Source: Treponema sp. C6A8
GTDB taxonomy: Bacteria; Spirochaetota; Spirochaetia; Treponematales; Treponemataceae
Length of the DNA stretch: 64,000 nt
NCBI RefSeq assembly: GCF_000619925.1
Contig: NZ_JHVB01000009.1
Coordinates: forward strand, 82,528 to 146,527
Direction: 5' to 3'
The notes beneath the pieces are model-generated. The model was not told the origin of the DNA, searched no databases, and worked only from the letters and a program-made list of their open reading frames with translations. Shown here piece by piece: positions 7,962 to 57,838 of the stretch (position 1 is the first letter of the stretch; each line of letters begins with the position of its first letter). A program made the translations under genes and the position numbers.

Positions 7962-8029
7962 AATAAAACCCCATAAATTAAAGATATACTATTCTATATA
8001 TTTGCAATGGTTTTGTCATTACAGAAAAT

Positions 8030-8155
8030 TAGCCACAGACGATTATACAACCTGCGCTTTAGCGCAGGTTAAGCAATGGTCCGGAGCATTCAGAAATTAA
8101 CAGTTAGATTACGACCATTGCACATCTGTGTTTATCTGCGTCCCATCTGTGGCTA
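8030..8155. repeat. AGCCACAGA palindromic element (R3), copy 1
   Basis: Outer arms TAGCCACAGA (8030-8039) and TCTGTGGCTA (8146-8155) are perfect inverted repeats. Inside are a 9-bp hairpin AACCTGCGC-TTTA-GCGCAGGTT (about 8049-8070) and a second arm pair GCAATGGTC / GACCATTGC (from about 8073 to 8121). The right end holds three degenerate ATCTGTG units spaced 10-11 bases apart. A shorter copy with the same outer arms lies at 11860-11922. The right arm ends 7 bases from the TAG of the HD-GYP gene. Function is unknown; it may terminate transcription. Confidence 0.7.
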
Positions 8156-8161
8156 TTTTTG

Positions 8162-11859: not shown

Positions 11860-11922
11860 TAGCCACAGATTTTCACAGATAATAAATTTCAATCTGTGTT
11901 TATCTGTGTGTATCTGTGGCTA
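11860..11922. repeat. AGCCACAGA palindromic element (R3), copy 2
   Basis: Outer arms TAGCCACAGAT (11860-11870) and ATCTGTGGCTA (11912-11922) are perfect 11-bp inverted repeats. Between them CACAGAT faces further ATCTGTG units in tandem with about 10-base spacing. The outer 10 bp equal those of the copy at 8030-8155, but this copy lacks the inner hairpins. The right arm overlaps and supplies the TAG stop codon of the PyrK-PyrD gene. Confidence 0.75.
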
Positions 11923-13719
11923 TTTATTTTGGATGCAGCCTCTAAAGTCGGCAAGAGACTTATAGCCCTTGCGTTTCATGAAGGCTGCAAGACCGTCAAT
12001 AATTTCTACCATGGCGTATGGGTTGGCAAAGGTTGCAGTGCCAACTTGCAGCGCATGTGCCCCTGCCATAATAAACTCAACGGCATCCTGCCAGGTGGCA
12101 ATTCCACCGATGGCAATTACAGGCACGCGTTCAGCTTCCGGCAGTTTATTGATTGCTTCTACCAGTTCGTAAACCAGTCGCACTGCAATAGGGCGAACGG
12201 CAGGACCGCCTACCCCGGCTTTTACCTTCTCAAAAACTGGAACTCCGCGTTCAATATCAACAGCAATGCCCTGGAAGGAATTACAAAGGCTGATTCCCTG
12301 TGCGCCAGATTTAATGCATTCCATTGCAACGCCAATTAAATCAGCTGCCTGAGGTGTAAGTTTTACAACAAGAGGCTTAGAAGTTGCGGCGCGAACGGCA
12401 CGGACAACATCCCCGGCTGCAGAACAGGTCATGCCAAAAGCTGCGCCGCCGGCACTGACGTTAGGGCAGGAAATGTTCAACTCAATCATCGGAACATCTG
12501 TTTTATCAAGAAGCTTGGCTCCTTCTACATAAGTTTCCAGAGAAGACCCCGAAAGGTTTGCAATTGCAACAGGCTTAAGGGCCATCATCTGAGGAAGTTC
12601 TTCCTTTATAAAATGAGGAATTCCAGGATTCTGCAGTCCGATAGAATTCATCAAACCGCTCGGAGTTTCCCAAAGTCGGATTCCGTCGTTACCCTGGCGA
12701 GGCTCCAAAGTTAAGCCCTTGCTTGAAATGCCGCCAAGTCTGTTTACATCAAAAACCGACTGATATTCAGTTCCAAAACCAAAGGCGCCTGAACTTCCGA
12801 TTACAGGATTTTCAAAATGCACGCCCGCAATATCTACGCTCAAATCAGGCTGAACATTGTCTGCAAGAGGTTCGCGGCGAGGCTGAATCTTTACACCGCC
12901 AACACTGTCCTTCTTTTCAAAAATCAGCTTGCTGCCTTCAAAAATAGGACCTTCCTTACAGCAGCGTTTTTTGCCCTCAGTCGTATCGATTACACAGCCA
13001 AGACAAACTCCCACACCGCAGGCCATGTGAGCTTCCATGCTCAACCAGCATTTTGTGCCACTTTCCGCGCAGACTTTCTGGATGTAGGCAAGCATTGGTG
13101 TCGGACCGCAGGCGTAAACTGCATCATATTTTTTTGACTGAAGAAGTTCTGCTGTAAATGCCACCGAAAGCATTCCCTTTTCCCCCACAGAACCGTCATC
13201 AGTTGTAATAGTGAGCTTTGCGGGTTTTATGTAATCCAGCGCGTAAGAGCCGCTCTTAAAGCTGGCAAAAAAGTCGTATGACGCTTCAGGAAGAGATTCT
13301 GCAAGGCCCGCTACCGGCGCCACACCAATTCCTCCGCCCACGATGCAGATTCTGCCACCCGCATTCACTTCAAAGCGGTTTCCGCAAGGGCCCAAAAGAC
13401 TTACCAGGTCACCTGGCTGCAGGGATGTAAGTTCTACAGTTCCCTTTCCTTTAACTAAAATTAAAAACTGGATTTCGACGCTGCCGTCAGCCTTCTTTTC
13501 TGAATGATAAACGCTGATCGGGCGAGGCAAAAGAACGTCGCTTCGCTTTGCATGAAGCATGTAAAACTGCCCCGCAAGAGGAAGTTCAGAACCCGCCGGC
13601 AGGCTGATTTTAAGATTTTTTACAGAACCAGAAGGATTTGCTCCTTCAACCACACTTACATTAACAACTTTTCCATCCGCAAAAACTGGAAGCGGAACTC
13701 CCTGGCAATCTTTAATCAT
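11920..13719 (-). CDS. pyrD: fused dihydroorotate dehydrogenase: PyrK electron-transfer unit plus PyrD catalytic unit
   Basis: One 599-residue chain carries what are usually two class 1B subunits. Residues 1-285 are PyrK-like: an FAD domain (RPISVYHSEKK), an NAD-binding segment (ICIVGGGIGVAPVAGLAESL) and a 2Fe-2S cysteine cluster (ACGVGVCLGCVIDTTEGKK then RCCKEGP). Residues about 287-599 are PyrD: FENPVIGSSGAFGFGTEY, NSIGLQNPGI, the ELNISCPNV segment with the catalytic Cys region, and GGIATWQDAVEFIMAGA. It oxidises dihydroorotate to orotate in pyrimidine synthesis, with NAD as acceptor. A TAAAAT box ends 6 bases before the ATG with no Shine-Dalgarno. Confidence 0.92.
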   Translation of the reverse strand: MIKDCQGVPLPVFADGKVVNVSVVEGANPSGSVKNLKISLPAGSELPLAGQFYMLHAKRSDVLLPRPISVYHSEKKADGSVEIQFLILVKGKGTVELTSLQPGDLVSLLGPCGNRFEVNAGGRICIVGGGIGVAPVAGLAESLPEASYDFFASFKSGSYALDYIKPAKLTITTDDGSVGEKGMLSVAFTAELLQSKKYDAVYACGPTPMLAYIQKVCAESGTKCWLSMEAHMACGVGVCLGCVIDTTEGKKRCCKEGPIFEGSKLIFEKKDSVGGVKIQPRREPLADNVQPDLSVDIAGVHFENPVIGSSGAFGFGTEYQSVFDVNRLGGISSKGLTLEPRQGNDGIRLWETPSGLMNSIGLQNPGIPHFIKEELPQMMALKPVAIANLSGSSLETYVEGAKLLDKTDVPMIELNISCPNVSAGGAAFGMTCSAAGDVVRAVRAATSKPLVVKLTPQAADLIGVAMECIKSGAQGISLCNSFQGIAVDIERGVPVFEKVKAGVGGPAVRPIAVRLVYELVEAINKLPEAERVPVIAIGGIATWQDAVEFIMAGAHALQVGTATFANPYAMVEIIDGLAAFMKRKGYKSLADFRGCIQNK

Positions 13720-13754: not shown

Positions 13755-13790
13755 ACAAATAAATTATAATATTTCTAAATCAAGGCTACC

Positions 13791-13915
13791 GGGGGAAGAG
13801 GGTGAGTCAAAACCGCTCGTTACCTCGCTACATGCTATTTTTGGTTGGAAACTATTGAACAGGCCGCTAGCGCGGCACCCAAAAATAGAATGTTTTTGCC
13901 TCACCCTCTTCCCCC
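13791..13915 (+). repeat. R1 palindromic repeat, copy A
   Basis: Outer arms of 16 bp pair perfectly: GGGGGAAGAGGGTGAG (13791-13806) with 13900-13915. Next come the family-constant CAAAA/TTTTG pair and the one-sided segment ACCGCTCGTTACCTCGCTA. The inner arms CATGCTATTTTTGG (13831-13844) and CCAAAAATAGAATG (13879-13892) carry one G-A mismatch. Inside them are AACTAT and a small hairpin GCCGC-TAGC-GCGGC (13863-13876). It lies between pyrKD and the tRNA-Leu promoter, which are divergent. Confidence 0.85.
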
Positions 13916-13956
13916 TCCCGCCAGTTTTACCTGTATAATTTTATACTGCCCTGTGA

Positions 13957-13996: not shown

Positions 13997-14082
13997 GCCG
14001 GGATGGCGGAACTGGTAGACGCCCAGGACTTAAAATCCTGTGTCAAGCAATTGACGTGCCGGTTCGACCCCGGTTCCCGGCA
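13997..14082 (+). tRNA. tRNA-Leu, anticodon TAA
   Basis: The acceptor stem GCCGGGA pairs with TCCCGGC and the discriminator is A. The D loop contains GGTAGACG. The anticodon arm is CAGGA-CTTAAAA-TCCTG with anticodon TAA, and a long variable arm (class II) precedes the T arm CCGG-TTCGACC-CCGG. CCA is not encoded. It reads UUA/UUG leucine codons. Confidence 0.96.
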
Positions 14083-22896: not shown

Positions 22897-23508
22897 ATGC
22901 GAACTGCAACTATAACAAGAAAAACTGGCGAAACACAAATATCACTTACCCTGAACTTAGACGGCAGCGGTAAATGCGACGTAAAAAATCCAATCGGTTT
23001 TTTTGACCATATGCTTAAATCTTTCTGCAAGCACGGGCTTTTTGATTTGTCCGGCAGCATTTCTGGCGACCTTGAAGTTGACCAGCACCATACAATCGAA
23101 GATACAGGAATTGTTCTTGGTGAATGCTTTAAAAAGGCTCTGGGCGACTGCGCTGGCATTTTCCGCTCAGGATTTTTCATCTACCCTATGGACGAAAGTC
23201 TTGTTCAGGCAGCCGTAGACTTTGGCGGCCGTCCATACCTTGTAAATAACGCAAACCTCACAGGAATTCCTCTTGTTTCAGTTCAGAACGGCAAGGAAGG
23301 CACCTTCCAGACCGACTGCTTTGAAGACTTCTGGCAGGGCTTCGTAAACGCCGCTTGCTGCAACCTCCACATCGACGTAATCCGCGGCCGCAGCGACCAC
23401 CACAAAATTGAAGGCGCTTTTAAGGCAGTTTCCCGCGCCATCCGCGCCGCAGTAGAAATCGACGAGCGCCGCGGCGGAACAGTACCTAGTACGAAAGGCG
23501 TAATTTAG
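22897..23508 (+). CDS. hisB: imidazoleglycerol-phosphate dehydratase
   Basis: Monofunctional HisB of 203 residues, the sixth step of histidine synthesis. Its manganese-binding motifs are clear: GFFDHMLKSFCKHG, then DQHHTIEDTGIVLG, and RSDHHKIEGAFKAVSRAI near the C-terminus. Translation starts at an ATG with CGGAGG 6 bases upstream. It is probably co-transcribed with hisG despite the 155-base element between them. No other his genes follow. Confidence 0.95.
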   Translation: MRTATITRKTGETQISLTLNLDGSGKCDVKNPIGFFDHMLKSFCKHGLFDLSGSISGDLEVDQHHTIEDTGIVLGECFKKALGDCAGIFRSGFFIYPMDESLVQAAVDFGGRPYLVNNANLTGIPLVSVQNGKEGTFQTDCFEDFWQGFVNAACCNLHIDVIRGRSDHHKIEGAFKAVSRAIRAAVEIDERRGGTVPSTKGVI

Positions 23509-23539
23509 ATAAAATATTTTCATAATATATTACTTACAG

Positions 23540-23696
23540 GTAAAAAATGCTCCCGGTCAGTAAGTGAGGTTCAAAACCGCGCGATATCGCGCTACATGCT
23601 GTTTGTGGATAAGTAACTATAATAATTGCCGCTTTCGCGGCACTCCACAAACAGAATGTTTTTGCCCCTCGCTTCCTTCCCTCGCGCATTTTTTAC
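23540..23696 (+). repeat. R1 palindromic repeat, copy B
   Basis: Outermost arms GTAAAAAATGC (23540-23550) and GCATTTTTTAC (23686-23696) pair perfectly. A second, imperfect arm pair follows (GTAAGTGAGG with CCTCGCTTCC). Then come CAAAA, the one-sided ACCGCGCGATATCGCGCTA, and inner arms CATGCTGTTTGTGG (23595-23608) and CCACAAACAGAATG (23645-23658) with the constant G-A mismatch. AACTAT and the hairpin TGCCGC-TTTC-GCGGCA lie inside. It lies between two plus-strand genes. Confidence 0.85.
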
Positions 23697-23710
23697 AGGG
23701 AGTGTTACCA

Positions 23711-34444: not shown

Positions 34445-34458
34445 TAGAAAAGAACTTA

Positions 34459-34593
34459 GTGGGAAACTCTGTTTTGTGCAGCATAGAAACGCTAGCAGAA
34501 CGTTACCCATAAAAAAAACGCGGTAACGAATAAGGCTTTCTTATTCATACCGCGTCCCTGCATTTCTCGGCGGAACAAAACAGAGTTCCCCAC
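34459..34593. repeat. R2 palindromic repeat, copy 1
   Basis: Arms GTGGGAAACTCTGTTTTGT (34459-34477) and ACAAAACAGAGTTCCCCAC (34575-34593) pair at 18 of 19 positions. A long internal hairpin (34519-34554) has CGCGGTA/TACCGCG and GAATAAG/CTTATTC. TTTGTGCAGCA on the left and TTCTCGGCGGAACAAA on the right are shared with the copy at 57733-57838. It lies between convergent genes mraY and the M20 peptidase. Confidence 0.82.
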
Positions 34594-34612
34594 GAAAGCA
34601 TTTTTATTTTAC

Positions 34613-37539: not shown

Positions 37540-37953
37540 ATGAAAAAATATATTGCTGCTACATTGATTTTACTTAGCCTGACTTTACTTGGCTGTGCTT
37601 CTACGACTGGTACTACAAAATCATCAGAAGCAAATTCCAAAAGCGAAAAGCCTGTAAAAAACACAGCCCGATTTGATGACTGGAAGTACAAGGGCTTTGG
37701 AATGCCATTACCTGAATGGGTAGAAGCAGCAATTGACGGCAAAACAGAAAAGCTTTCCAAGGCATTCGGGCGCTCAGCAGACCAGCTTGAAGTTCTTACT
37801 GGCAGCGGAATAAATGTTGACCACTCGGAAGAACAATTGAAATCAAAAATTCCGGAAGGAAAAGATTTAATAGAAGGATTCTGGGTTCGTTTGAACACAG
37901 AAGTAAAAAAGACTAACGAGCCGTATATTACGGTTTTGATATATGAGAAATAA
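37540..37953 (+). CDS. small lipoprotein, unknown function
   Basis: Unrecognised 137-residue protein. The ATG at 37540 gives a compact lipoprotein signal (MKKYIAATLILLSLTLLGC). A TTG seven codons earlier is also in frame, but it lies upstream of the predicted transcription start. The mature chain contains FGMPLPEWVEAAIDGKTEKL and ends in beta-type segments (PYITVLIYEK). A TTAACA-17-TATTAT promoter ends 7 bases before the ATG. An intrinsic terminator follows the stop. Confidence 0.72.
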   Translation: MKKYIAATLILLSLTLLGCASTTGTTKSSEANSKSEKPVKNTARFDDWKYKGFGMPLPEWVEAAIDGKTEKLSKAFGRSADQLEVLTGSGINVDHSEEQLKSKIPEGKDLIEGFWVRLNTEVKKTNEPYITVLIYEK

Positions 37954-37962
37954 GGTAAAGCT

Positions 37963-37990
37963 AAAAAATTGCTGCATCGCAATTTTTTTT
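37963..37990 (+). terminator. intrinsic terminator between lipoprotein gene and galE
   Basis: A 10-bp stem AAAAAATTGC / GCAATTTTTT with a 6-base loop (TGCATC) and a run of eight T. Only 17 bases separate it from the galE start codon, leaving no room for a promoter. Confidence 0.85.
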
Positions 37991-38007
37991 CACAAGGAGG
38001 CATAATA

Positions 38008-38967
38008 ATGAAAGTTTTGGTAATTGGTGGCGCAGGTTACATCGGAAGCCACGTTGTAAAAGAGTTGATGGCTGCAGGCCACAAGGTAACAGTATTTGAT
38101 AACCTTTCTTCAGGATTGCGAGTAAATCTTTTCCCTGAAAATGACTTTATTTATGGAAACATTTTGATTCCGTCAGATCTGGATGCCGCATTTGCACGCG
38201 GATTTGACGCTTTTGTTCACCTTGCCGCATTTAAGGCTGCCGGTGAATCTATGGTTGCTCCGGAAAAATATTCTGTAAACAACATCACAGGTACTTTGAA
38301 CATCATGAATGCCGCTGTTGCCCACAACTGTAAAAAGATGATTTTCTCTTCTTCTGCGGCAACCTTCGGTGAACCACAGTATCTTCCAATGGATGAAAAT
38401 CATCCTCAGAATCCAATCAACTACTACGGATTCACAAAACTCGAAATTGAACGCTTTATGGGCTGGTATGATCAGCTTAAGGGAATGCGCTTTGCAGCCC
38501 TCCGCTACTTCAATGCCGCTGGTTATGATCCTGAAGGAAAAATCCGCGGTCTTGAACAGAAGCCAGAAAACCTTCTTCCACGCATTATGGAAGCAGCTCT
38601 TGGACAGCGCGAACTCAAGGTATTCGGAACTGACTACGACACACGCGACGGAACCTGTATCCGTGACTATGTTCATGTAACAGACCTTGCACGTGCCCAC
38701 GTAATGGCTTTGGACTACATTGCAAAGAATGACAAGAGCCTTAAGCTCAACCTGGGAACTGAAAAGGGAACAACAGTAAAAGAGCTTTTGGACGCTGCAC
38801 GCAAAATCACAGGAAAGCCAATTCCTGCAGAAGACGCTCCACGCCGCCCTGGTGACCCTGCAAGCCTTTACGCTACTTCAAAGCTTGCAAAAGAGCTTCT
38901 CGGCTGGGAACCAAAATACAGCGACGTAGATACTCTCGTAAAAACAACTTGGGAAGTATACAAATAG
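38008..38967 (+). CDS. galE: UDP-glucose 4-epimerase
   Basis: An extended short-chain dehydrogenase/reductase that interconverts UDP-glucose and UDP-galactose. It begins MKVLVIGGAGYIGSHVVKEL with the NAD-binding Gly motif. The catalytic Tyr-Lys motif is in NYYGFTKLEIERF, with SSSAATFGEP and YFNAAGYDPEG around it. TCIRDYVHVTDLARAHVMA and VKELLDAARKITG complete the family. The start is the ATG at 38008 with a perfect AAGGAGG. A terminator lies immediately before it, so expression may depend on readthrough. Confidence 0.92.
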   Translation: MKVLVIGGAGYIGSHVVKELMAAGHKVTVFDNLSSGLRVNLFPENDFIYGNILIPSDLDAAFARGFDAFVHLAAFKAAGESMVAPEKYSVNNITGTLNIMNAAVAHNCKKMIFSSSAATFGEPQYLPMDENHPQNPINYYGFTKLEIERFMGWYDQLKGMRFAALRYFNAAGYDPEGKIRGLEQKPENLLPRIMEAALGQRELKVFGTDYDTRDGTCIRDYVHVTDLARAHVMALDYIAKNDKSLKLNLGTEKGTTVKELLDAARKITGKPIPAEDAPRRPGDPASLYATSKLAKELLGWEPKYSDVDTLVKTTWEVYK

Positions 38968-38989
38968 TATAAACTTTAACTAAAAGTTA

Positions 38990-39127
38990 GCTCCCGGACA
39001 GATAGCATGTGGCAAAACCGCTCGGTACCTCGCTACATGCTATTTTTGTTATGAAACTATTGAAGGCGCCGCTAGCGCGGCAGACAAAAATAGAATGTTT
39101 TTGCCCCACGCTATCTGCCCTCGCGCC
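38990..39127 (+). repeat. R1 palindromic repeat, copy C
   Basis: Outer arms CAGATAGCATGTGGC (38999-39013) and GCCCCACGCTATCTG (39103-39117) pair at 13 of 15. Then come CAAAA/TTTTG, the one-sided ACCGCTCGGTACCTCGCTA, and inner arms CATGCTATTTTTGT (39036-39049) and ACAAAAATAGAATG (39084-39097). AACTAT and the hairpin GCCGC-TAGC-GCGGC are inside. It lies between convergent galE and the VWA gene. Confidence 0.85.
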
Positions 39128-39144
39128 AGTTTCATCTAAACTTT

Positions 39145-40380
39145 CTAATTCGACGGCAACAGAATTGTATGCACCTTGATACCTTTCTTTTCTGCCACAC
39201 CCATTACATATTCCTTGGAATACTTGCCGCTCATTCTAGGGTAAGGATGCGGTTCGGCATCACCAATCAAAAGAATCTGACGGTCTGAGTCAGGTCTCCA
39301 TTCAAAGAATTCTGCGCTGGCATAAAGCGCCTCATAAACAGCTTCAGGAACATCTCCGCCTTCGCGGCCGTTCATGCTGATAGACTTCAAGTTGGCGCTG
39401 AAGTTTTCATAATTCTGAGTAAAGGCAAAAAGCTTTACAGGAAGATTCATATACTTGTAGTTGTCTCCGTAGTCGCGGTAGAAAAGGAGACCAAAGCGGG
39501 CATCAGGGCTTTCACCAAAAACCTTGCGTAGTTCAGGTTCAAGACGAGCCTTAAGCTCATCAATATCATCTTTCATACTTCCTGTCGCATCAACTGCAAG
39601 AACCAAATCAAGAGGCTTTGTTTTATCAAATCCATCGATAACGCCCATAATGTCTTCAACAATTGTCGCAGGTCCCTTAGAATAAATCATTCCGTTATCA
39701 ATTTCCTTAAATGCCTCACTGGCAACAGGGTTGTAATCATTTGTAAGGATAACTTCCGGTTCCGGCTCAGGTTCAGGAAGAGGAGCCGGCTTTGGACGCT
39801 TTTTGGTAACAAGGTCAAACATATAAGGGTTATCCATATAATCACCGGTGTAATCGGCATAAGGTTTTTCGTAGGTACGAATATTGATGAAAGTGCCCTT
39901 TCCAATTTCAACTTCCCCGTGACGAGACCAGGGGTATCCGTAAACGATTTTTGGCGGAATATAGATATGGAAAGCCTGCCCAAAGAAATCTGTCTCTTCC
40001 GGAGTGGAATCTACAAGACTGTAGCGGGCATAATCTGTATCAAGCTTTTTGCCGTCCAGAATACGGATTTCATCACCATTTACAGGATTATATTCAGGAG
40101 CTCGGTAAGCATAGTTATCAATTTTTCCTGTCGGATCCTTTGTAGTTTCCGTAAGCAAAATTGAACCTACGAAAGGAGACGCTTTGACGTAAAGATGGAA
40201 GCCGCCTTTTGTTTCATCAGCTTCTTTTATAAGCCTGATATTTTCCGGAGAAAGCATCAGCTGCTGCTGTCGTTCCGTGTAAATAATTTTCTGACCGTCA
40301 CCAAGATTCTGAGCAGAAAGAGCGGTCACTGAAAATCCAACTGAAATAAACAGACAAAATAACAATTTCTTTATCATCAT
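39145..40380 (-). CDS. secreted von Willebrand factor A-domain protein
   Basis: A 411-residue exported protein: signal peptide LLFCLFISVGFSVTALSA, then a mainly beta N-terminal region (about 25-190). A Pro-Glu linker (PAPLPEPEPEPEV, near residue 200) follows, and a C-terminal VWA domain from about 255. The metal-ion-dependent adhesion site is LVLAVDATGSMKDDID, with a later Thr/Asp region at ILLIGDAEPHPYP. Such proteins bind protein or carbohydrate partners in the periplasm or at the surface. No partner gene is nearby. Confidence 0.8.
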   Translation of the reverse strand: MMIKKLLFCLFISVGFSVTALSAQNLGDGQKIIYTERQQQLMLSPENIRLIKEADETKGGFHLYVKASPFVGSILLTETTKDPTGKIDNYAYRAPEYNPVNGDEIRILDGKKLDTDYARYSLVDSTPEETDFFGQAFHIYIPPKIVYGYPWSRHGEVEIGKGTFINIRTYEKPYADYTGDYMDNPYMFDLVTKKRPKPAPLPEPEPEPEVILTNDYNPVASEAFKEIDNGMIYSKGPATIVEDIMGVIDGFDKTKPLDLVLAVDATGSMKDDIDELKARLEPELRKVFGESPDARFGLLFYRDYGDNYKYMNLPVKLFAFTQNYENFSANLKSISMNGREGGDVPEAVYEALYASAEFFEWRPDSDRQILLIGDAEPHPYPRMSGKYSKEYVMGVAEKKGIKVHTILLPSN

Positions 40381-40512
40381 ATATATTTTATCGGTTGAAA
40401 ATCCTAAAAAATGATTTATAATTTATAATAAGCGTTAATAAATACTTATTTTATTAAATCTACTTTAAAAAACACTGATATTTGACTAAAATAATAGTCT
40501 ATCGTTAAAGAT

Positions 40513-41589
40513 ATGGAAGAGTTAAACGCTCAGGAATTTGAGCAGGTAGACATAAGTTCATTTTTCGACTCAGAAGCTGAAGTCAGCCAGGAAGACTCCA
40601 AGGTCGTCATTTTTACTAAAAAGCAGAATGACCTTGTAAATGAAATTATACCTATCGTACAGAAAAACAACAAAACCACCGCAGAAAGCTTTATCAACCG
40701 AATTGTCGATCTGGAAGCGCTTGCTTCGGCAATTAACCGCTTCCCTTCCCTGCTCGAACGCCACTCAATAATTGGTGACGTAAGAACACCAACTTCGCTG
40801 ATTGACTCTTTGATTGACCACATGAACAACGGTGACTCAACTCTTCAGCTTCCTTCAAAGGCAAACCTTGGAAAAGGACTTTTGATTGCAAAAATGCATA
40901 CACTTTCCCGCCTGGGCCGTGAAGCAAAATTCCTGGGCGAAGAAAAGCTTGCAAAAGAACTTGAAACGGAAACAATTTCGTCCATGTTCTCGCTTCTGGT
41001 AGAAGACGTTTACTTGAACCTTATAAACGACACAAGCCAGCCGCTTGAATTCCGCCGCGAATGGGCCATGTCACTTCTTCTGCTTTGGGAACACTGGAGC
41101 GACCAGAATATCGAAGACGTTGCTCCCGTTTTGCAGGCAGTTTGGACAGCCCGCCGCCGACTTGCGCCAGCCTTTGGTACAATGATGGGAACCAGTGAGC
41201 TTATGATGATTTCCATGCAGATGGACGATCAGTGGATTCACTTTATTAAAGAAAAAATGGGAGATCCGGGCGTTACCCAGGCAATGGAAGAATTCCTCTT
41301 TGGAATTTCTTACGAGCAGATTAAAACGCTTAAAAATACACTTAAAACACAGGGAATTTCGGCAATCGGACGAGATGAAGTTTCAAAATTTCTTGGCGAA
41401 CACGTAAAAGCCGATGCCGGACTGGACTACCGAGACTTCTACTCTCTGTATACAGTACGCCGCGATAATGCGCGCTCACGTGCACGATTTAAGGTAGAAG
41501 GCCCTTATAAAACTCTGGAAGACTATTATATCCAGTTTGTAACAGAACAGAACAAGGAGAAACAGAAAAATGACACCTTTGCAAAATGA
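40513..41589 (+). CDS. unknown cytoplasmic protein, coupled to XRE-cupin regulator
   Basis: Unrecognised 358-residue protein without signal or membrane segments; mostly helical by composition. Distinctive segments are LPSKANLGKGLLIAKMHTLSRLGREAKF, split here by position at about residues 115-140, and RREWAMSLLLLWEHWSDQN. The final 20 bases overlap the start of the regulator gene, so the two are translated together. TTGACT (40482-40487) may be a -35. I recall nothing outside spirochaetes with this layout, but could not check. Confidence 0.7.
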   Translation: MEELNAQEFEQVDISSFFDSEAEVSQEDSKVVIFTKKQNDLVNEIIPIVQKNNKTTAESFINRIVDLEALASAINRFPSLLERHSIIGDVRTPTSLIDSLIDHMNNGDSTLQLPSKANLGKGLLIAKMHTLSRLGREAKFLGEEKLAKELETETISSMFSLLVEDVYLNLINDTSQPLEFRREWAMSLLLLWEHWSDQNIEDVAPVLQAVWTARRRLAPAFGTMMGTSELMMISMQMDDQWIHFIKEKMGDPGVTQAMEEFLFGISYEQIKTLKNTLKTQGISAIGRDEVSKFLGEHVKADAGLDYRDFYSLYTVRRDNARSRARFKVEGPYKTLEDYYIQFVTEQNKEKQKNDTFAK

Positions 41590-42190
41590 TGTAAACACAG
41601 ACAATTCACTTCACCCAAAAAAGGTGCCCTATCACTTTGGCGAAAAACTCCGCCAGGTGCGCGAACACAAGGGCTACACCCTCAAGGTGGTTGCACAGCA
41701 GGCCGGCGTAAGCGAAAGCCTTGTTTCACAGATTGAACGCAACCACGTTTCACCGGCAATTGATACTTTGCTTGCTCTGGCAGACGTTCTGGACATCAAT
41801 CTGGAATTTTTGTTTGAAGAATACCGCAAGGAGCGCCCTGTAAAAATTATCCGCAGCGGCGAACGCCCTACTCTGAACGAAGAAGAAATTATTTACGAAG
41901 AAATTTCCAAGCCGGATGACGTAGACAAGCAGAACTCTTTTGAATCTTACATGGTCCGCATTCCTGCAAAGTCACACACTCACCGCGGTTCTTACGGTCA
42001 TATCGGAAAGGAAATGGGTTACATTCTTCACGGAAAGGCAAAACTCACCTACGAAAACAAGGAATACATTCTTGATGAAGGCGACAGCGCAACATTCTCT
42101 TCCGGGGTTCCACACACTCTGGAAAACATCGGCGAAGACGAACTCAAGGCCATCTGGATTGTTACACCGCCACAGCGTTTCGTAAACTAA
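41570..42190 (+). CDS. XRE-family regulator with C-terminal cupin domain
   Basis: A 206-residue transcription factor. Residues 22-78 are an XRE/Cro helix-turn-helix (LRQVREHKGYTLKVVAQQAG, VSESLVSQIERNHVSPAIDT). Residues about 125-200 are a small cupin barrel (HTHRGSYGHIGKEMGYILHG, LDEGDSATFSSGVPHTLEN). This is the PuuR/ErfK-like architecture seen in regulators of metabolite use, where the cupin binds the effector. The ATG has AAGGAGA upstream, inside the end of the preceding gene. Confidence 0.88.
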   Translation: MTPLQNDVNTDNSLHPKKVPYHFGEKLRQVREHKGYTLKVVAQQAGVSESLVSQIERNHVSPAIDTLLALADVLDINLEFLFEEYRKERPVKIIRSGERPTLNEEEIIYEEISKPDDVDKQNSFESYMVRIPAKSHTHRGSYGHIGKEMGYILHGKAKLTYENKEYILDEGDSATFSSGVPHTLENIGEDELKAIWIVTPPQRFVN

Positions 42191-42195
42191 AATGT

Positions 42196-42219
42196 CATCA
42201 TCGGGCCTGACCCAATAAT
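42196..42219. terminator. GGGTCAGGCCC palindrome between convergent genes
   Basis: On the minus strand, ATTATTGGG-TCAGG-CCCGATGAT folds into a 9-bp stem with two G-U pairs. On the plus strand the same positions are A-C mismatches, so the RNA of the minus-strand gene is the better folder. A close copy is at 58189-58211. Confidence 0.65.
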
Positions 42220-43056
42220 CTAAGACAGTAATTCAAGTTCTTCATCACTAAGCTTCCGGTACTCGCCGGGAGCTAATTTTTTATCTAACAGCAGCTGCCC
42301 CATGGCAAGACGTTTAAGGAAGACGACCTTATTTCCCGCAGCAGTAAACATTCTTTTTACCTGGTGGTACTTTCCTTCATAAATAGTAAGAATTGCAAAG
42401 CGGGCAGGACGACGCAGCATTTCAGCGTCACCTTCCCAGAGGCGGTCGCAGACTTCACCCACAGAAGATTTTTCTAAAGCAGCATCAATTTCTTCCTGAG
42501 AAGGAAATCGCACGCGGGCAGGCTCGCAGGTAAAGCCCGGATCGTTGTCATCAGGCCCGACCGCAATACCTTCTTCAAAGCGGCGGCTTACATCAGCCTG
42601 CTCCTGCTCGGAAAACTCCCGCTCCAGCATTACAAAATAAGTTTTATCAATATGAGATTTTGGTGAAATAAGGCGGTGAGTAAGGGCGCCGTCGGTAGTA
42701 AATAGAAGGAGACCTTCGGTATCCATATCCAGGCGGCCTACAAGGTGCAGCTTGTCCTGCAAATAAGGTGTACGATATTCAGGCGCCAGCAGGTCAAATA
42801 CAGTCTGGTGCTCGCCATCCTTGTTGGCGCTGACAGTGTGGGCAATCTTATTCATCATAAGAGTTATGTTTTTTACGATTGTCACAGGCTCGCCGTCAAC
42901 GCTGAGTTCGTCGCTGTCAGGGTCAATTCCCAGGCTTGGGTCATAAATGCGTTTGCCGTTCAAAAGCACCTCTGCCGAGCGGAGGAGACGTTTTATGTCC
43001 TTACGGGAACCAAAGCCCTGGTGAGAAAGAAGCTTGTCTATACGTTCTTTTGGCAT
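42220..43056 (-). CDS. pseudouridine synthase, RsuA/RluB family
   Basis: A 278-residue rRNA modification enzyme. An N-terminal S4 RNA-binding domain (ERIDKLLSHQGFGSRKDIKR LLR, residues 4-27, and VLLNGKRI) precedes the catalytic domain. That domain has the motif HLVGRLDMDTEGLLLFTTDG, whose Asp is catalytic, and ILTIYEGKYHQVKRMFTAAG. It isomerises a specific uridine in 16S or 23S rRNA; which one cannot be told. It is convergent with the XRE-cupin gene. Confidence 0.88.
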   Translation of the reverse strand: MPKERIDKLLSHQGFGSRKDIKRLLRSAEVLLNGKRIYDPSLGIDPDSDELSVDGEPVTIVKNITLMMNKIAHTVSANKDGEHQTVFDLLAPEYRTPYLQDKLHLVGRLDMDTEGLLLFTTDGALTHRLISPKSHIDKTYFVMLEREFSEQEQADVSRRFEEGIAVGPDDNDPGFTCEPARVRFPSQEEIDAALEKSSVGEVCDRLWEGDAEMLRRPARFAILTIYEGKYHQVKRMFTAAGNKVVFLKRLAMGQLLLDKKLAPGEYRKLSDEELELLS

Positions 43057-43086
43057 AAGTTAAAATTAATTCAAAAAATGCAAATA

Positions 43087-43242
43087 GCAAAAATGTCTTC
43101 CGGTCGCATAGCGGTAGCCAAAACCGCGCGATATCGCGCTACACGCTGATTGTTGCAAAGGAACTATAGAATTGACCGCTCACGCGGTCACAACAATCAG
43201 AGTGTTTTTGTCCACCGCTATACTCCCTCACGGCATTTTTGC
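43087..43242 (+). repeat. R1 palindromic repeat, copy D
   Basis: Outermost arms GCAAAAATG (43087-43095) and CATTTTTGC (43234-43242), second arms ATAGCGGT (43108-43115) and ACCGCTAT (43214-43221), all perfect. Then CAAAA/TTTTG, ACCGCGCGATATCGCGCTA, and inner arms CACGCTGATTGTTG (43142-43155) and CAACAATCAGAGTG (43191-43204) with the constant G-A mismatch. AACTAT and the hairpin TGACCGC-TCAC-GCGGTCA lie inside. It lies between two minus-strand genes. Confidence 0.88.
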
Positions 43243-43281
43243 CCTAAGTAAATTCACATTACTTTTTACTTTGATAAAAGT

Positions 43282-44643
43282 CTAGCCTCGCTCTGCAATA
43301 GGCACAAAAGGACGTTCTTCTGAAACGTTCTTGTATGCAGGACGGTAGATTCGGCCTCCGCTGACAACTTCCTCAATACGGTGAGCAGACCATCCGGCAA
43401 TTCGCGAAATTGCGAAAATCGGAGTAAAGAGCTCGCGAGGAATATTGAGCATTGAATATACAAAACCAGAATAAAGGTCGACGTTAGCGCAAACCTTCTT
43501 GTCTGAATGATGAACGTCACAGATAATGCCGGGAGCCACACGTTCGATGATGTCGTAAAGTCCGAACTCATCCATACAGCCCTTTTCTTTAGCCAGCTGT
43601 TTAGCCTTTGCCTTCAAAAGCTTTTCACGAGGGTCGCTGATTGTATAAACTGCGTGTCCCATACCGTAAATCAAACCGCTGTGGTCAAAAGCGTCCTTCT
43701 GGGCAATTTTTCTAAGGTAAGCAGAAACTTCCTGCTCACTGCCCCAGTCTTTTACGTTTGCCTTGATTTCGTCCATCATCTCAACTACGCGGATGTTGGC
43801 ACCACCATGACGGCTTCCCTTCAAGGAACCGATTGCGGCTGCCATTGAAGAATAAGTATCTGTATCGGCAGAAGAAACAACGTGAACTGTCAAAGAAGAG
43901 TTGTTACCACCACCATGCTCTGCGTGAATGATAAGGGCAAGGTCAAGAACCTGAGCCTCAAGCGCGCTGAATTCCTTATTTGAACGGATAAGACGGAGGA
44001 AGTTTTCTGCAGTAGAAAGCTCCGGCTTTGGATTGTGGATATACATACTTTCACCGTCGTAATAGCGGCGCTTTGCCTGATAACCGTAAGCGGCAAAAGT
44101 AGAAAAGCGTGCAATCAGCTGAACGCTCTGCTTGATGATATTTCCAAGGCTGCGGTTTTCAGGATCTTCATCATAAGAATAGCTTGCGAGTACACAACGA
44201 GCCATCTTATTCATGATGTCCTTAGAAGGCGCCTTCATAATCATATCTTCTGTAAAGCTTGGAGGAAGGTTTCGGATTTCACCGATGTAGTTTGCAAAAC
44301 GGTCAAGCTGCTCCTGACTTGGAAGCTCACCAAAAAGAAGAAGGTAAGCGCACTGCTCATATCCAAACTGATGATTTTTTTCAGCATCGGCAATCAGGTC
44401 TTCAACGTTGTAGCCGCGGTAAACAAGACGGCCAGGAACTGCAACCTTTTCGCCGTCACGCATTTCATAACCGACTACATCACCAATGCGGGTAAGACCT
44501 ACAAGTACACCAGTACCGTTTGCATTACGGAGACCGCGTTTGACATCAAACTTAGAATATAAATCCGGGTTAATCGGGTCATTGTGAACAGCAAGACTTT
44601 CGAACTTTTTCAGGATTTCTGATTCGTCTTTGTAATCAATCAT
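43282..44643 (-). CDS. gltA: citrate synthase
   Basis: Condenses acetyl-CoA and oxaloacetate to citrate. At 453 residues it is the longer bacterial form with an N-terminal extension. Catalytic features are LIIHAEHGGGNNSSLTVHVV (His), LKGSRHGGANIRVVEMM, the active-site IYGMGHAVYTISDPR (His), and the C-terminal ISRIAGWSAHRIEEV. GGAG precedes the ATG. No other TCA-cycle gene is in the window; in fermentative treponemes it probably feeds 2-oxoglutarate and glutamate synthesis. It is transcribed alone from the gap at 44644-44768. Confidence 0.93.
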   Translation of the reverse strand: MIDYKDESEILKKFESLAVHNDPINPDLYSKFDVKRGLRNANGTGVLVGLTRIGDVVGYEMRDGEKVAVPGRLVYRGYNVEDLIADAEKNHQFGYEQCAYLLLFGELPSQEQLDRFANYIGEIRNLPPSFTEDMIMKAPSKDIMNKMARCVLASYSYDEDPENRSLGNIIKQSVQLIARFSTFAAYGYQAKRRYYDGESMYIHNPKPELSTAENFLRLIRSNKEFSALEAQVLDLALIIHAEHGGGNNSSLTVHVVSSADTDTYSSMAAAIGSLKGSRHGGANIRVVEMMDEIKANVKDWGSEQEVSAYLRKIAQKDAFDHSGLIYGMGHAVYTISDPREKLLKAKAKQLAKEKGCMDEFGLYDIIERVAPGIICDVHHSDKKVCANVDLYSGFVYSMLNIPRELFTPIFAISRIAGWSAHRIEEVVSGGRIYRPAYKNVSEERPFVPIAERG

Positions 44644-55169: not shown

Positions 55170-56846
55170 ATGACAGATATTGAAATTGCACAGAAAAATG
55201 TAATGATTCCTATCAAGGATGTGGCTGCAAAAATCGGAATTGCAGAAGACAAGCTTGAACTCTACGGACCATACAAAGCAAAAATCACTTTTGAAGAATT
55301 AAAAACCTTGCAGAAAAAGGCTTCCGAAAAACCAGGAAAGCTTATTCTTGTAACTGCAATCACTCCTACCCCGGCAGGCGAAGGAAAATCAACAGTTAGC
55401 ATCGGACTTGCAGACGGACTTAATAAAATCGGAAAGAAAACCGTAGTAGCCCTTCGCGAGCCAAGCCTTGGACCTTGCTTCGGTGTAAAAGGCGGTGCCT
55501 GTGGCGGCGGCTATGCCCAGATTGTCCCGATGGAAGACATCAACCTGCACTTTACAGGCGACATTCACGCAATCTCAATTGCAAACAACCTTATTGCAAC
55601 CTTAATCGATAACCATATTCAGCAGGGAAATCAGCTGGGAATTGACCCGCGCACAATCAGCTGGAAACGCTGTATGGATTTGAACGACCGTTCTTTGCGC
55701 AACATTATCGTTGGACTTGGCGGACGTCTTCAGGGAGTTCCTCGAGAAGACCACTTTACAATCGCAGTTGCCTCAGAAATCATGGCAATCATCTGTCTTT
55801 CAAAAACAATCAGCGAGCTTAAAGAGCGCATTGACCGCATTGTAATCGGTCAGAACTACGCACGAGAGAACGTAACCTTCGGACAGCTTAAATGCACAGG
55901 CGCTGTTGCAGCTCTTCTAAAAGACGTAATCAAACCAAACCTTGTTCAGACTTTGGAAAAGAATCCTGCATTTGTTCACGGCGGACCTTTTGCCAACATA
56001 GCCCACGGCTGTAACAGCGTAAACGCAACAATGTGTGCCCTTGCAACCGGCGACTACGTAGTTACAGAAGCTGGCTTTGCAGCCGACCTGGGTGCAGAAA
56101 AGTTCTTAGACATTAAATGCCGCTCGGCAGGACTTAAACCGGATGCAGTTGTAATTGTTGCAACTATCCGCGCCCTCAAAATGCACGGTGGCGTAGCAAA
56201 AACTGACCTGGCTCAACCAAATACAGCAGCACTGGAAAAAGGCTTTGAAAACCTTAAGACTCATATAGAAAACATTGCAAAATTCGGACTTCCAAGCGTT
56301 GTTGCCGTAAACAAATTCATTACAGACAGCGACGAAGAAATTAAACTTTTACAGGATTTGTGCGAAAGGTTTGGTGCAAAAGCCGTACTCAGCGAAGGCT
56401 GGGAAAAAGGCGGAAACGGAACTCAGGAGCTTGCAAAAGCAGTCGCAGAACTTGCAGACAGCGGAAAGGCAGCCTTCAAGCACCTTTACCAGGATGATCT
56501 TCCTCTCACAAAGAAGATTGAAACAATTGCAAAAGAGATTTACCGCGCAGAACGCGTAGATTTTGACTCCGCCGCATTGAAAAAGCTCAAGACTTTCGAA
56601 GAACAGGGCTACGGAAAGCTTCCGGTCTGCATTGCAAAAACTCAGAACTCAATCAGCCACGACCCGACATTAATCGGAGCGCCAAAAGGCTTTGTTTTCC
56701 CGGTCCGCGACGTTCAGCTCTACGCCGGCGCAGGCTTCGTAGTAGCGTTGGCAGGTGACATCATGACAATGCCAGGCTTACCAAAAGCCCCAGCTGCCCT
56801 CAACATCGACGTTGATGACGACGGAAAAATTACAGGATTGTTCTAA
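55170..56846 (+). CDS. fhs: formate--tetrahydrofolate ligase
   Basis: ATP-dependent synthesis of 10-formyl-tetrahydrofolate, a one-carbon entry point used in acetogenesis and purine synthesis. Length 558. Diagnostic segments are the P-loop [60 protein letters not shown], and the late [16 protein letters not shown] and [16 protein letters not shown] ends 8 bases before the ATG with no ribosome-binding site, close to leaderless spacing. It is followed by an R1 repeat and convergent adk. Confidence 0.95.
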
Positions 56847-56870
56847 TTAAATAAGATTAGTTTAAAATTA

Positions 56871-57024
56871 AAAAAACAGCTTCCAGTCGAGTTGTTGATT
56901 CCAAAACCGCGCGATATCGCGCTACACGCTATTTGTGGTAAAGTAACTATTGAACCTGCCGCTCACGCGGCAGCCACAAATAGAGTGTTTTTGTAATCCA
57001 CAACTCTCCCTCGCGCTGTTTTTT
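56871..57024 (+). repeat. R1 palindromic repeat, copy E
   Basis: Outermost arms AAAAAACAGC (56871-56880) and GCTGTTTTTT (57015-57024) are perfect, giving A- and T-tracts like a two-way terminator. Second arms GAGTTGTTGATT (56889-56900) and AATCCACAACTC (56995-57006) pair at 11 of 12. Then CAAAA, ACCGCGCGATATCGCGCTA, and inner arms CACGCTATTTGTGG (56925-56938) and CCACAAATAGAGTG (56974-56987). AACTAT and the hairpin CTGCCGC-TCAC-GCGGCAG are inside. It lies between convergent fhs and adk. Confidence 0.9.
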
Positions 57025-57040
57025 TTATTGAAAGTCTATC

Positions 57041-57673
57041 TTACTTCTTAAAAATCTCTTTGAACTTTCCAAGAAGTACATCAGTTTCAATAGAAGCATC
57101 CAAATCTGTGATTGCTCCCTTGTCGCGGTAGAACTTAATAAGAGGTTCTGTCTGCTCGCGGTAAACGTCCATACGGTGAAGGATAGATTCCTGTTTGTCG
57201 TCATCGCGCTGGTAGAGTTCGCCGCCACACTTGTCGCAAACGCCTTCTACTTTTGGTGGAAGAGTAAGAACGTTGAAGTTAGCGCCACAAGCCTTACATA
57301 CACGGCGTGTAGAAAGACGGCGGATAACGATTTCGTCCTTAATTTCAAAGTTTACAACCTTTACATCGTCACAAATCTTTGTGAACATTTCTGCCTGAGG
57401 AATTGTGCGAGGGAAACCGTCAAGAATATATCCGTTCTTGCAGTCAGGCTGAGAAAGGCGATCCTTTACAAGTTCGCAAGTCAAATCATCACTTACCAAA
57501 GAACCTGAATCGATGATAGCCTTAACCTTTACTCCAAGAGGAGTCTGATTTTTAATATTTGCACGGAAAATATCGCCAGTAGAAATATGTGGGATTTTGT
57601 AGTCTTCTGCAACTTTTACAGCCAACGAGCCTTTACCAGCTCCCGGTGGGCCTAAAAAAATGAAATTGTTCAT
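57041..57673 (-). CDS. adk: adenylate kinase, zinc-binding lid form
   Basis: Interconverts ATP, AMP and ADP. The 210-residue chain has the P-loop FLGPPGAGKGSLAVKVAE, the AMP site ISTGDIFRANI, YILDGFPRTIPQAEMF, and a lid with four Cys (CKACG and CDKCGG) that bind zinc, followed by QRDDDKQESILHRMDVY. AGGAG precedes the ATG. It is convergent with fhs and divergent from groES. Confidence 0.95.
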   Translation of the reverse strand: MNNFIFLGPPGAGKGSLAVKVAEDYKIPHISTGDIFRANIKNQTPLGVKVKAIIDSGSLVSDDLTCELVKDRLSQPDCKNGYILDGFPRTIPQAEMFTKICDDVKVVNFEIKDEIVIRRLSTRRVCKACGANFNVLTLPPKVEGVCDKCGGELYQRDDDKQESILHRMDVYREQTEPLIKFYRDKGAITDLDASIETDVLLGKFKEIFKK

Positions 57674-57732: not shown

Positions 57733-57838
57733 AAAAATGCGTAGCAGGCTTCGTGATTTGTGTAGCACTGCAGAGCAAGCAAAGCTTGCGGCGAGCGTTC
57801 TCGGCGGAACAAATCACGGTTTCTGCGAGAGCATTTTT
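57733..57838. repeat. R2 palindromic repeat, copy 2
   Basis: Outer AAAAATGC (57733-57740) pairs with GCATTTTT (57831-57838), and inner CGTGATTTGT (57752-57761) with ACAAATCACG (57809-57818), both perfect. The loop holds GCAAG-CAAAG-CTTGC and CGAG-CGTT-CTCG hairpins. It shares TTTGTGYAGCA and TTCTCGGCGGAACAAA with the copy at 34459-34593, though the flanking arms differ in sequence. It lies between divergent adk and groES. Confidence 0.82.

Follow-up and report, generated by a model that had tools for sequence, protein, structure and literature searches.

Five copies of an intergenic repeat, which we refer to as R1, lie in the window (the whole stretch of 64,000 nucleotides that was analyzed), and all of them stand where the sequence-only reading had placed them, that is, at 13791, 23540, 38990, 43087, and 56871. 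The limits set by a covariance model, the neighboring genes, and the parts of the copy at 43087 are collected in table 1. The genes that adjoin the five copies are unrelated to one another; the gene beside the copy at 38990 (39145-40380, minus strand) had no Pfam match at an e value of 1e-10, and the GDSL-lipase-like gene to the right of the copy at 23540 has a listed open reading frame (ORF) that, with its tentative start, overlaps R1.

Table 1. Copies of R1 in the window and structural parts of the copy at 43087
Feature	Position	Strand	Basis and remarks
R1 copy of the finding	43084-43245	minus	covariance-model limits; 172.9 bits, E 9.8e-52
R1 copy between DHO_dh gene 11920-13719 (-) and tRNA gene 13997-14082 (+)	13773-13933	minus	covariance model, neighbor domains
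R1 copy between IGPD gene 22897-23508 (+) and GDSL-lipase-like gene ending 24403 (+)	23537-23699	minus	covariance model
R1 copy between convergent genes 37969-38967 (+, epimerase) and 39145-40380 (-)	38978-39138	minus	covariance model
R1 copy between convergent FTHFS gene 55170-56846 (+) and adenylate kinase gene 57041-57673 (-)	56867-57028	minus	covariance model
P1 5' arm, A-tract	43234-43243	minus	fold; pairs with 43086-43095
P1 3' arm, T-tract	43086-43095	minus	fold
P2 5' arm, copy-specific	43212-43223	minus	fold; pairs with 43106-43117
P2 3' arm	43106-43117	minus	fold
CAAAA, nearly invariant	43206-43210	minus	alignment A6 and fold; pairs with UUUUG 43119-43123
UUUUG, nearly invariant, after P3	43119-43123	minus	alignment A6 and fold
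P4 5' arm, one C-U mismatch	43190-43205	minus	fold; pairs with 43141-43156
P4 3' arm	43141-43156	minus	fold
P5 hairpin, GUGA (GNNA/GNRA) tetraloop at 43180-43183	43174-43189	minus	loop census and fold
Conserved unpaired AUAGUU, P5-P4 joining loop	43162-43167	minus	ATAGTT in 79 of 92 rows of A6
P3 side hairpin of three-way junction	43126-43139	minus	alignment A6 and fold

The five copies in the window had been described as a five-copy family; they are real, but the family is larger. R1 measures about 150 bases and is dispersed over at least 59 places in its own genome (150 of 883 first-look candidates scored), nearly all of them intergenic. The covariance model R1 (162 positions) was built from A3, a structure-free MAFFT alignment of 32 copies that blastn had found, from which a copy with a foreign left half (L022) was excluded; the e values of covariance models R1 and R2 are rough. 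A search of the own genome with the model gave 70 rows from the same 150 of 883 candidates, and because palindromes match both ways, rows on opposite strands of one place were merged as one copy. With a 64-base fragment (C1:370487) left out, the 59 places comprise 55 full-length copies and 4 that are deleted, enlarged, or weak. The model also found many intergenic matches over the genome and its relatives, as a structured element should give, and the copies are diverged rather than being only identical recent duplicates. At the gathering cut-off Rfam identified one tRNA in the window and nothing on R1; further Rfam searches yielded one chance-level match (e value 3.9), and five R1 loci had no match at an e value of 0.1. 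We found no published R1-like family in Treponema among the open-licence papers listed, as covered by titles or abstract starts.

The copy at 43087 folds far beyond shuffled sequences (z = -7.9 on the minus strand and -7.3 on the plus strand, matched by 0 of 200 shuffles). It is the minus strand in window coordinates that folds, the complement of the strand that had been read before, and the fold is a three-way junction whose arms covary, with a GNNA loop and A-tract/T-tract ends. P1 consists of the A-tract/T-tract with UGGC/GCCA; next come the internal loop GCGA/GGRA, two G-C pairs, and a tandem G·A that is present in 73 of 89 copies; inward of it lie P2, whose arms are copy-specific, the pairing CAAAA/UUUUG, and the three-way junction, from which side hairpin P3 and stem P4 extend. 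The single C-U mismatch in P4 is the G-A mismatch beside GCT that had been noticed on the other strand. Inward of P4 an asymmetric loop with AUAGUU stands beside hairpin P5, whose loop is four bases long in 85 of 89 copies (GNNA in 80 of them and GNRA in 61); two copies in other genomes (L265 and L268) are without P5 and retain the AUAGUU loop. All shared motifs listed previously (CAAAA, TTTTTG, the ACCGC..CGCTA segment, CAYGCT, AACTAT, and a GCCGC/GCGGC-type hairpin) were found in the copies; the 19-base ACCGC..CGCTA segment had been called one-sided but itself folds as P3. The outer arms pair within each copy, as had been claimed, but they are not wholly unrelated between copies, having a loose common consensus (AAAAnUGGC) and an A-tract/T-tract at their edge. 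Pairing drops to chance level a few bases beyond these tracts. In three copies P3 carries or gives way to foreign sequence (L181:2120-2201; L175:2008-2088; L223), the insert being the same in two. At window positions 43119-43139 (minus strand), P3 and the following GGUUUUG resemble a small internal terminator whose U-run pairs in the fold with the nearly invariant CAAAA, making this segment a possible candidate for a switch.

Pairing was assessed on A3 and on a larger alignment, A6, with 92 rows (89 distinct) taken from matches with an e value of 1e-27 or less in 79 sources, weak and broken copies being omitted. A6 was fitted to the covariance model, and the tests were therefore repeated on the unfitted A3. 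Among the 89 distinct copies of A6, 95.1% of pair cells are paired compared with 76.9% in shuffles, and in A3 the values are 95.0% and 83.4%. Both sides have changed in 50 of the 54 pairs of A6, and the covariation score is 0.508 compared with 0.168 (0 of 500 shuffles). For covariation above phylogenetic expectation, which the sequence-only reading had proposed to examine with R-scape, we used a similar test of our own based on a G statistic with average-product correction and substitutions redistributed on a FastTree tree, which is only approximate where copies recombine. This expectation was exceeded in A6 by 34 of the 54 pairs in the two-set test and by 18 when all column pairs were tested (16 in an earlier run), with no off-structure pair in either. 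The corresponding numbers in A3 are 23 and 4 of 54, and two off-structure pairs (55-60 and 55-73), which join P4 and P5, look like linked subtypes.

The mismatches reveal which strand folds. On the folded strand, non-Watson-Crick cells in A3 include 62 G·U and 15 A·C, an excess that lies almost wholly in P2 (48 vs. 4) and is absent from P1 (8 vs. 9); A6 has 158 G·U and 42 A·C as well as 127 G·A and 22 C·U. The minus strand also has the better fold of the two, in 54 of 55 copies with RNA parameters and in 53 of 55 with DNA parameters. A double-stranded cruciform would give symmetric mismatches, so the G·U skew indicates a fold of one strand, as would be expected of RNA or single-stranded DNA, and argues against a symmetric cruciform of double-stranded DNA; we reject the latter as the main form. 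The earlier proposal of selection on a folded RNA or DNA cruciform rather than simple duplication thus holds for RNA (or single-stranded DNA) but not for the cruciform, and duplication and exchange are partly involved. The G·U excess holds in copies opposite to tandem neighbor genes (17 vs. 3 A·C in 7 copies of the fitted alignment), at divergent sites (17 vs. 7 in 10 copies), and at convergent sites (26 vs. 7 in 15 copies), and therefore seems to belong to the element itself rather than to neighboring transcription; transcription-coupled mutation as its source is disfavored by the copies that oppose their neighbors. GNRA is a classical stable RNA loop, and stable C(GNNA)G loops are known for DNA too, so the P5 loops leave RNA and single-stranded DNA undivided.

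Gene context was taken from a simple ORF caller, by which an ORF spans the R1 place in 3 of the 59 cases. Thirty-one of the places lie between tandem genes (23 with and 8 against the genes), 16 are convergent, 11 are divergent, and 1 is without a left neighbor; where both neighbors have at least 120 codons (n = 50), the counts are 20 with, 7 against, 16 convergent, and 7 divergent. The tandem orientation bias in the own genome (23 vs. 8, P = 0.011) was not seen elsewhere: of 35 copies from other genomes, 11 lie with and 8 against the genes (P = 0.65), 6 are convergent, and 10 are divergent. At 12 of the 15 full-length convergent sites in the own genome, no more than 21 bases separate R1 from the called gene on either side, and R1 thus makes up essentially the whole intergenic stretch there. 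The 3' end bears at least six T in eight bases on the opposite strand in 39, on the folded strand in 35, and on both in 28 of the 55 full-length copies, with a background of 14.5% of 220 stretches. T-tracts are richer at ends that face incoming transcription (mean best 8-base T count 6.28 at 60 ends vs. 5.74 at 50; Mann-Whitney P = 0.028), a difference that is not significant by Fisher test at a cut-off of 6 (P = 0.157). Because convergent gaps are filled and T-tracts stand at both ends and are richer where transcripts arrive, R1 may act as a terminator, a reading for which sequence provides a moderate basis. The stem beside the U-tracts is just UGGC/GCCA, followed by the internal loop. A terminator scan of window positions 38900-43400, limited to loops of 3-8 bases, returned only P3 with UUUU of the copy at 43087 and the ends of neither copy. 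Inside the copy at 43087 there is one weak promoter-like match (TATAGT). Termination cannot be the only role of R1, since no terminator is needed at the divergent copies (11 of 59 in the own genome and 10 of 35 elsewhere).

Eleven R1 sites of the own genome (G000) were compared with the orthologous sites in three relatives (G053, G024, and G004), and three of them were left out of the count, two for want of aligned flanks (13791 and 23540) and one for a missing right flank (C4:147460). Each of the eight resolved sites lacks R1, or has a broken copy of it, in one or more of the three relatives. It is absent at 43087 from all five relatives inspected there (the three plus G015 and G003) and at C4:130406 from G053, G024, and G004. 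At 56871, G053 has R1 with a pair-preserving change in P5 (C-G to T-A), G024 has a terminator-like plain hairpin with a T-tract that keeps the letters of the left end of R1, and G004 (L213) has a different palindrome. Another palindrome occupies site 38990 in G053, and R1 is absent there from G024 and G004, in which the left gene is inverted. Site C9:24557 is without R1 in G053 and G024, and in G004 bears a copy with P3 swapped for another hairpin. At C9:28746, G053 and G004 carry R1 but differ in its P2-P5 core from the own genome, and G024 has about 4 kb of other DNA that contains none of its 16 R1 matches. At C9:31898, resolved for G004 and G024, the former has R1 with a different P4-P5 core and an identical left P2 arm, and the latter has a GC-rich palindrome. 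R1 is present at C4:128533 in G053 and G024, with a right-end remnant in G004. Copies within one genome share cores, and a given site can hold different cores in different relatives.

Since all resolved sites differ, R1 copies have been gained or lost, and the core may change while outer parts stay shared; such core differences probably arise by recombination or gene conversion between copies, though reinsertion might also produce them. The G024 hairpin at 56871 may reflect loss of R1 instead of an empty target, as it keeps R1 letters. That P1 is a captured host terminator stem is an attractive idea at 56871, but P1 has its own consensus and its pairing fades outside the tracts. Target-site duplication was not found in the 55 full-length copies (mean longest direct repeat 5.49 vs. 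5.41 shuffled), and R1-bearing and R1-free sites also differ in tens of bases of flanking DNA; for these reasons a clean insertion event is not seen.

Other palindromes occur in the window and at related loci. A 45-base plain hairpin with A/T tracts at window positions 37949-37993 (AAAAAATTGC..GCAATTTTTT) is terminator-like and recurs at several places in the own and related genomes with 87-100% identity. A second palindromic family, with ends AAAATGC..GAAAGCATTTT, lies at L215:17977-18121, L220:4610-4753, and window positions 57768-57837, where the match is partial (77% over 74 bases); a right end similar to that of this family is seen in the window palindrome at 34456-34596. A third, with A/T-tract ends and arms that by eye read GCGGGTCCCAGCGA / GCGTGGGACGC, is found at L215:1606-1716 and at the G004 site orthologous to the copy at 56871 (L213). 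GC-rich palindromes (GGCGTTGCGGGC..) make up a fourth (L216:3924-4008 and L228:203-290), found also at an R1 site in another species. A repeat with TAGCCACAGATTTTCACAGATAA at window positions 11860-11922 and 8025-8160 has matches at other loci of the own and one related genome.

In our sample of the genus, 35 of 59 genomes (own included) match R1 and 24 show no match, with 1 to at least 49 matches in each of the former under stricter filters. In a sample of the order, matches occur in 27 of 194 genomes and 5 of 74 genera, and in 23 of 42 genomes of the window's genus among those listed. Two of the five genera, one of which belongs to another family, rest on one marginal match each (e values 4e-4 and 6e-4); among the genomes sampled, R1 is convincing in three genera only, all of the Treponemataceae, the family of the window. 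Carriage by phages or plasmids was rejected: one R1 copy had no blastn match in phages or plasmids at an e value of 1e-5, and one R1 core pattern had no exact match in viral contigs. Six Treponema or Spirochaetaceae loci around the FTHFS gene (L031-L036) also had no R1 match; in one of them (Treponema sp. UBA2869, L031 after 4988), a transposase-like open frame downstream of FTHFS starts, on reading the letters, right after the first arm of a terminator-like hairpin. R1 is concentrated near dnaA in the closed genome G044, where 20 of the 28 matches fall within 52 kb of that gene and close pairs are frequent (C1, L313-L318). This clustering is not general, as only 2 of 32 copies do so in G111, and in the own genome the dnaA contig (C5) has 4 R1 places with 4.1 expected.

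R1 fits the broad kind of structured dispersed intergenic repeat to which bcr and YPAL belong, having many intergenic copies, a conserved secondary structure, and presence or absence between relatives. The attC sites of integrons are strand-specific folded sites with a conserved shape, variable letters, and AAC/GTT triplets at the arms; R1 resembles them in its strand-specific fold with conserved shape and variable letters, but, by eye on A3 and on the pair table of A6, is without such arm triplets, and it is dispersed in mixed orientation. REP/RAYT systems are likewise intergenic palindromes in many copies, but with a palindrome of 20-40 bp and a cognate Y1_Tnp, whereas R1 is about 150 bases long and branched and Y1_Tnp was not found in its genome. 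With bidirectional intrinsic terminators R1 shares an A-tract, stem, and T-tract readable on both strands, but it has a branched conserved insert of more than 100 bases in place of a short loop. R1 does not fit a MITE, as there are no conserved terminal inverted repeats (the outer arms vary beyond the loose consensus) and no target duplication. The replication-fork orientation bias of an IS200/IS605-like single-stranded DNA transposon is absent from G111 and G159. The repeats bcr1-bcr18 of the Bacillus cereus group are dispersed and intergenic, bcr1-3 being MITE-like and often within UTRs or operon gaps and bcr10 and bcr18 having a conserved secondary structure (PMC3446304, in part); likened by description only, R1 differs in its phylum, the lack of target duplication, its copy-specific covarying arms, and its terminator-like ends. 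YPAL (168 bases) and other stem-loop families have tens of copies, many of them intergenic, in Yersinia and other genera (PMC2267715, in part), whereas R1 is branched and strand-specific; the word Treponema appears nowhere in the main text of that article. Among 3161 candidate RNAs of human microbiomes, two bear Treponema in their names (86 and 57 bp) and lie upstream of ribosomal protein genes, and the palindromic candidates, mostly predicted terminators, are by description only among the kinds nearest R1 (PMC8040213, in part).

Several explanations compete. Chance or an alignment artefact deserves practically no credence given the fold of the copy at 43087 relative to shuffles, the pairing in both A3 and A6, and the tree-based covariation. 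Pairing might instead be maintained by template switching during replication (quasipalindrome correction) and not by selection on the fold, and the G024 hairpin at 56871, which combines R1 left-end letters with a matching new right arm, is what such a process would leave; however, it would yield Watson-Crick palindromes and erase mismatches, whereas R1 shows strand-biased G·U, fixed mismatches, G·A loops, and GNNA loops. Template switching is thus contradicted by the strand bias and very improbable as the general cause, yet may act at times. Slightly less improbable, though still unlikely, is an ordinary house-keeping structured RNA or 3' UTR regulator, selected in place and immobile: the pair-preserving P5 change between G000 and G053 and the tandem orientation bias in the own genome agree with it, but sites appear and vanish between close relatives, the copies in the window adjoin unrelated genes, and 24 of the genus genomes have no match.

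It is conceivable, if doubtful, that R1 is primarily selfish, its folded strand (RNA or single-stranded DNA) being recognized by a trans-acting machine and any terminator effect a by-product through which it is tolerated at gene ends. The same strand folds whatever the direction of the neighbors, copy number is patchy (0 to at least 59), and the unpaired AUAGUU, kept in the copies without P5, could with the G·A loops form a candidate binding site. Against this stand the lack of target duplication and the results for possible movers. Y1_Tnp (PF01797, the RAYT domain) had no match in G000, G004, G024, or G053 and occurs in 12 of 59 genus genomes, not all of which match R1, and RVT_1 occurs in 18 of 59, with one match each in G000 and G024 and none in G004 or G053. 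Eleven genomes have 28 or more R1 matches; 9 of these are without Y1_Tnp (one other has a sub-cut-off match only) and 8 without RVT_1, so that neither a RAYT nor a reverse transcriptase tracks the R1-rich genomes and neither is supported as a common mover. There is also no leading-strand bias in two closed genomes, with 19 of 32 copies on the leading strand in G111 (32 of 43 rows, after removal of the weak ones) and 6 of 13 in G159, turning points being taken from sampled GC skew.

The reading that we prefer, with a probability of roughly 0.55, is that R1 is a mobile-like element that settles at gene ends and is likely a bidirectional intrinsic terminator with a folded 3' RNA. R1 would move between places in the genome as a unit and land at gene ends; there its A-tract/T-tract ends would stop transcription from both sides, and the folded strand would be transcribed as a folded 3' RNA. 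More tentatively, and with less confidence, R1 might be a nomadic terminator, that is, a geneless mobile element that spreads as a folded strand, replaces or expands host terminators, and competes with other palindromic families, its core being renewed by exchange between copies and its outer arms being local. For the R1 family, sequence by itself is enough to read the fold and even the strand that folds. In three cases different palindromic families stand at the same sites in sister species; if the terminator reading is true, a spreading element rewrites the 3' ends of genes in these bacteria, and the origin and turnover of bacterial terminators become directly testable.
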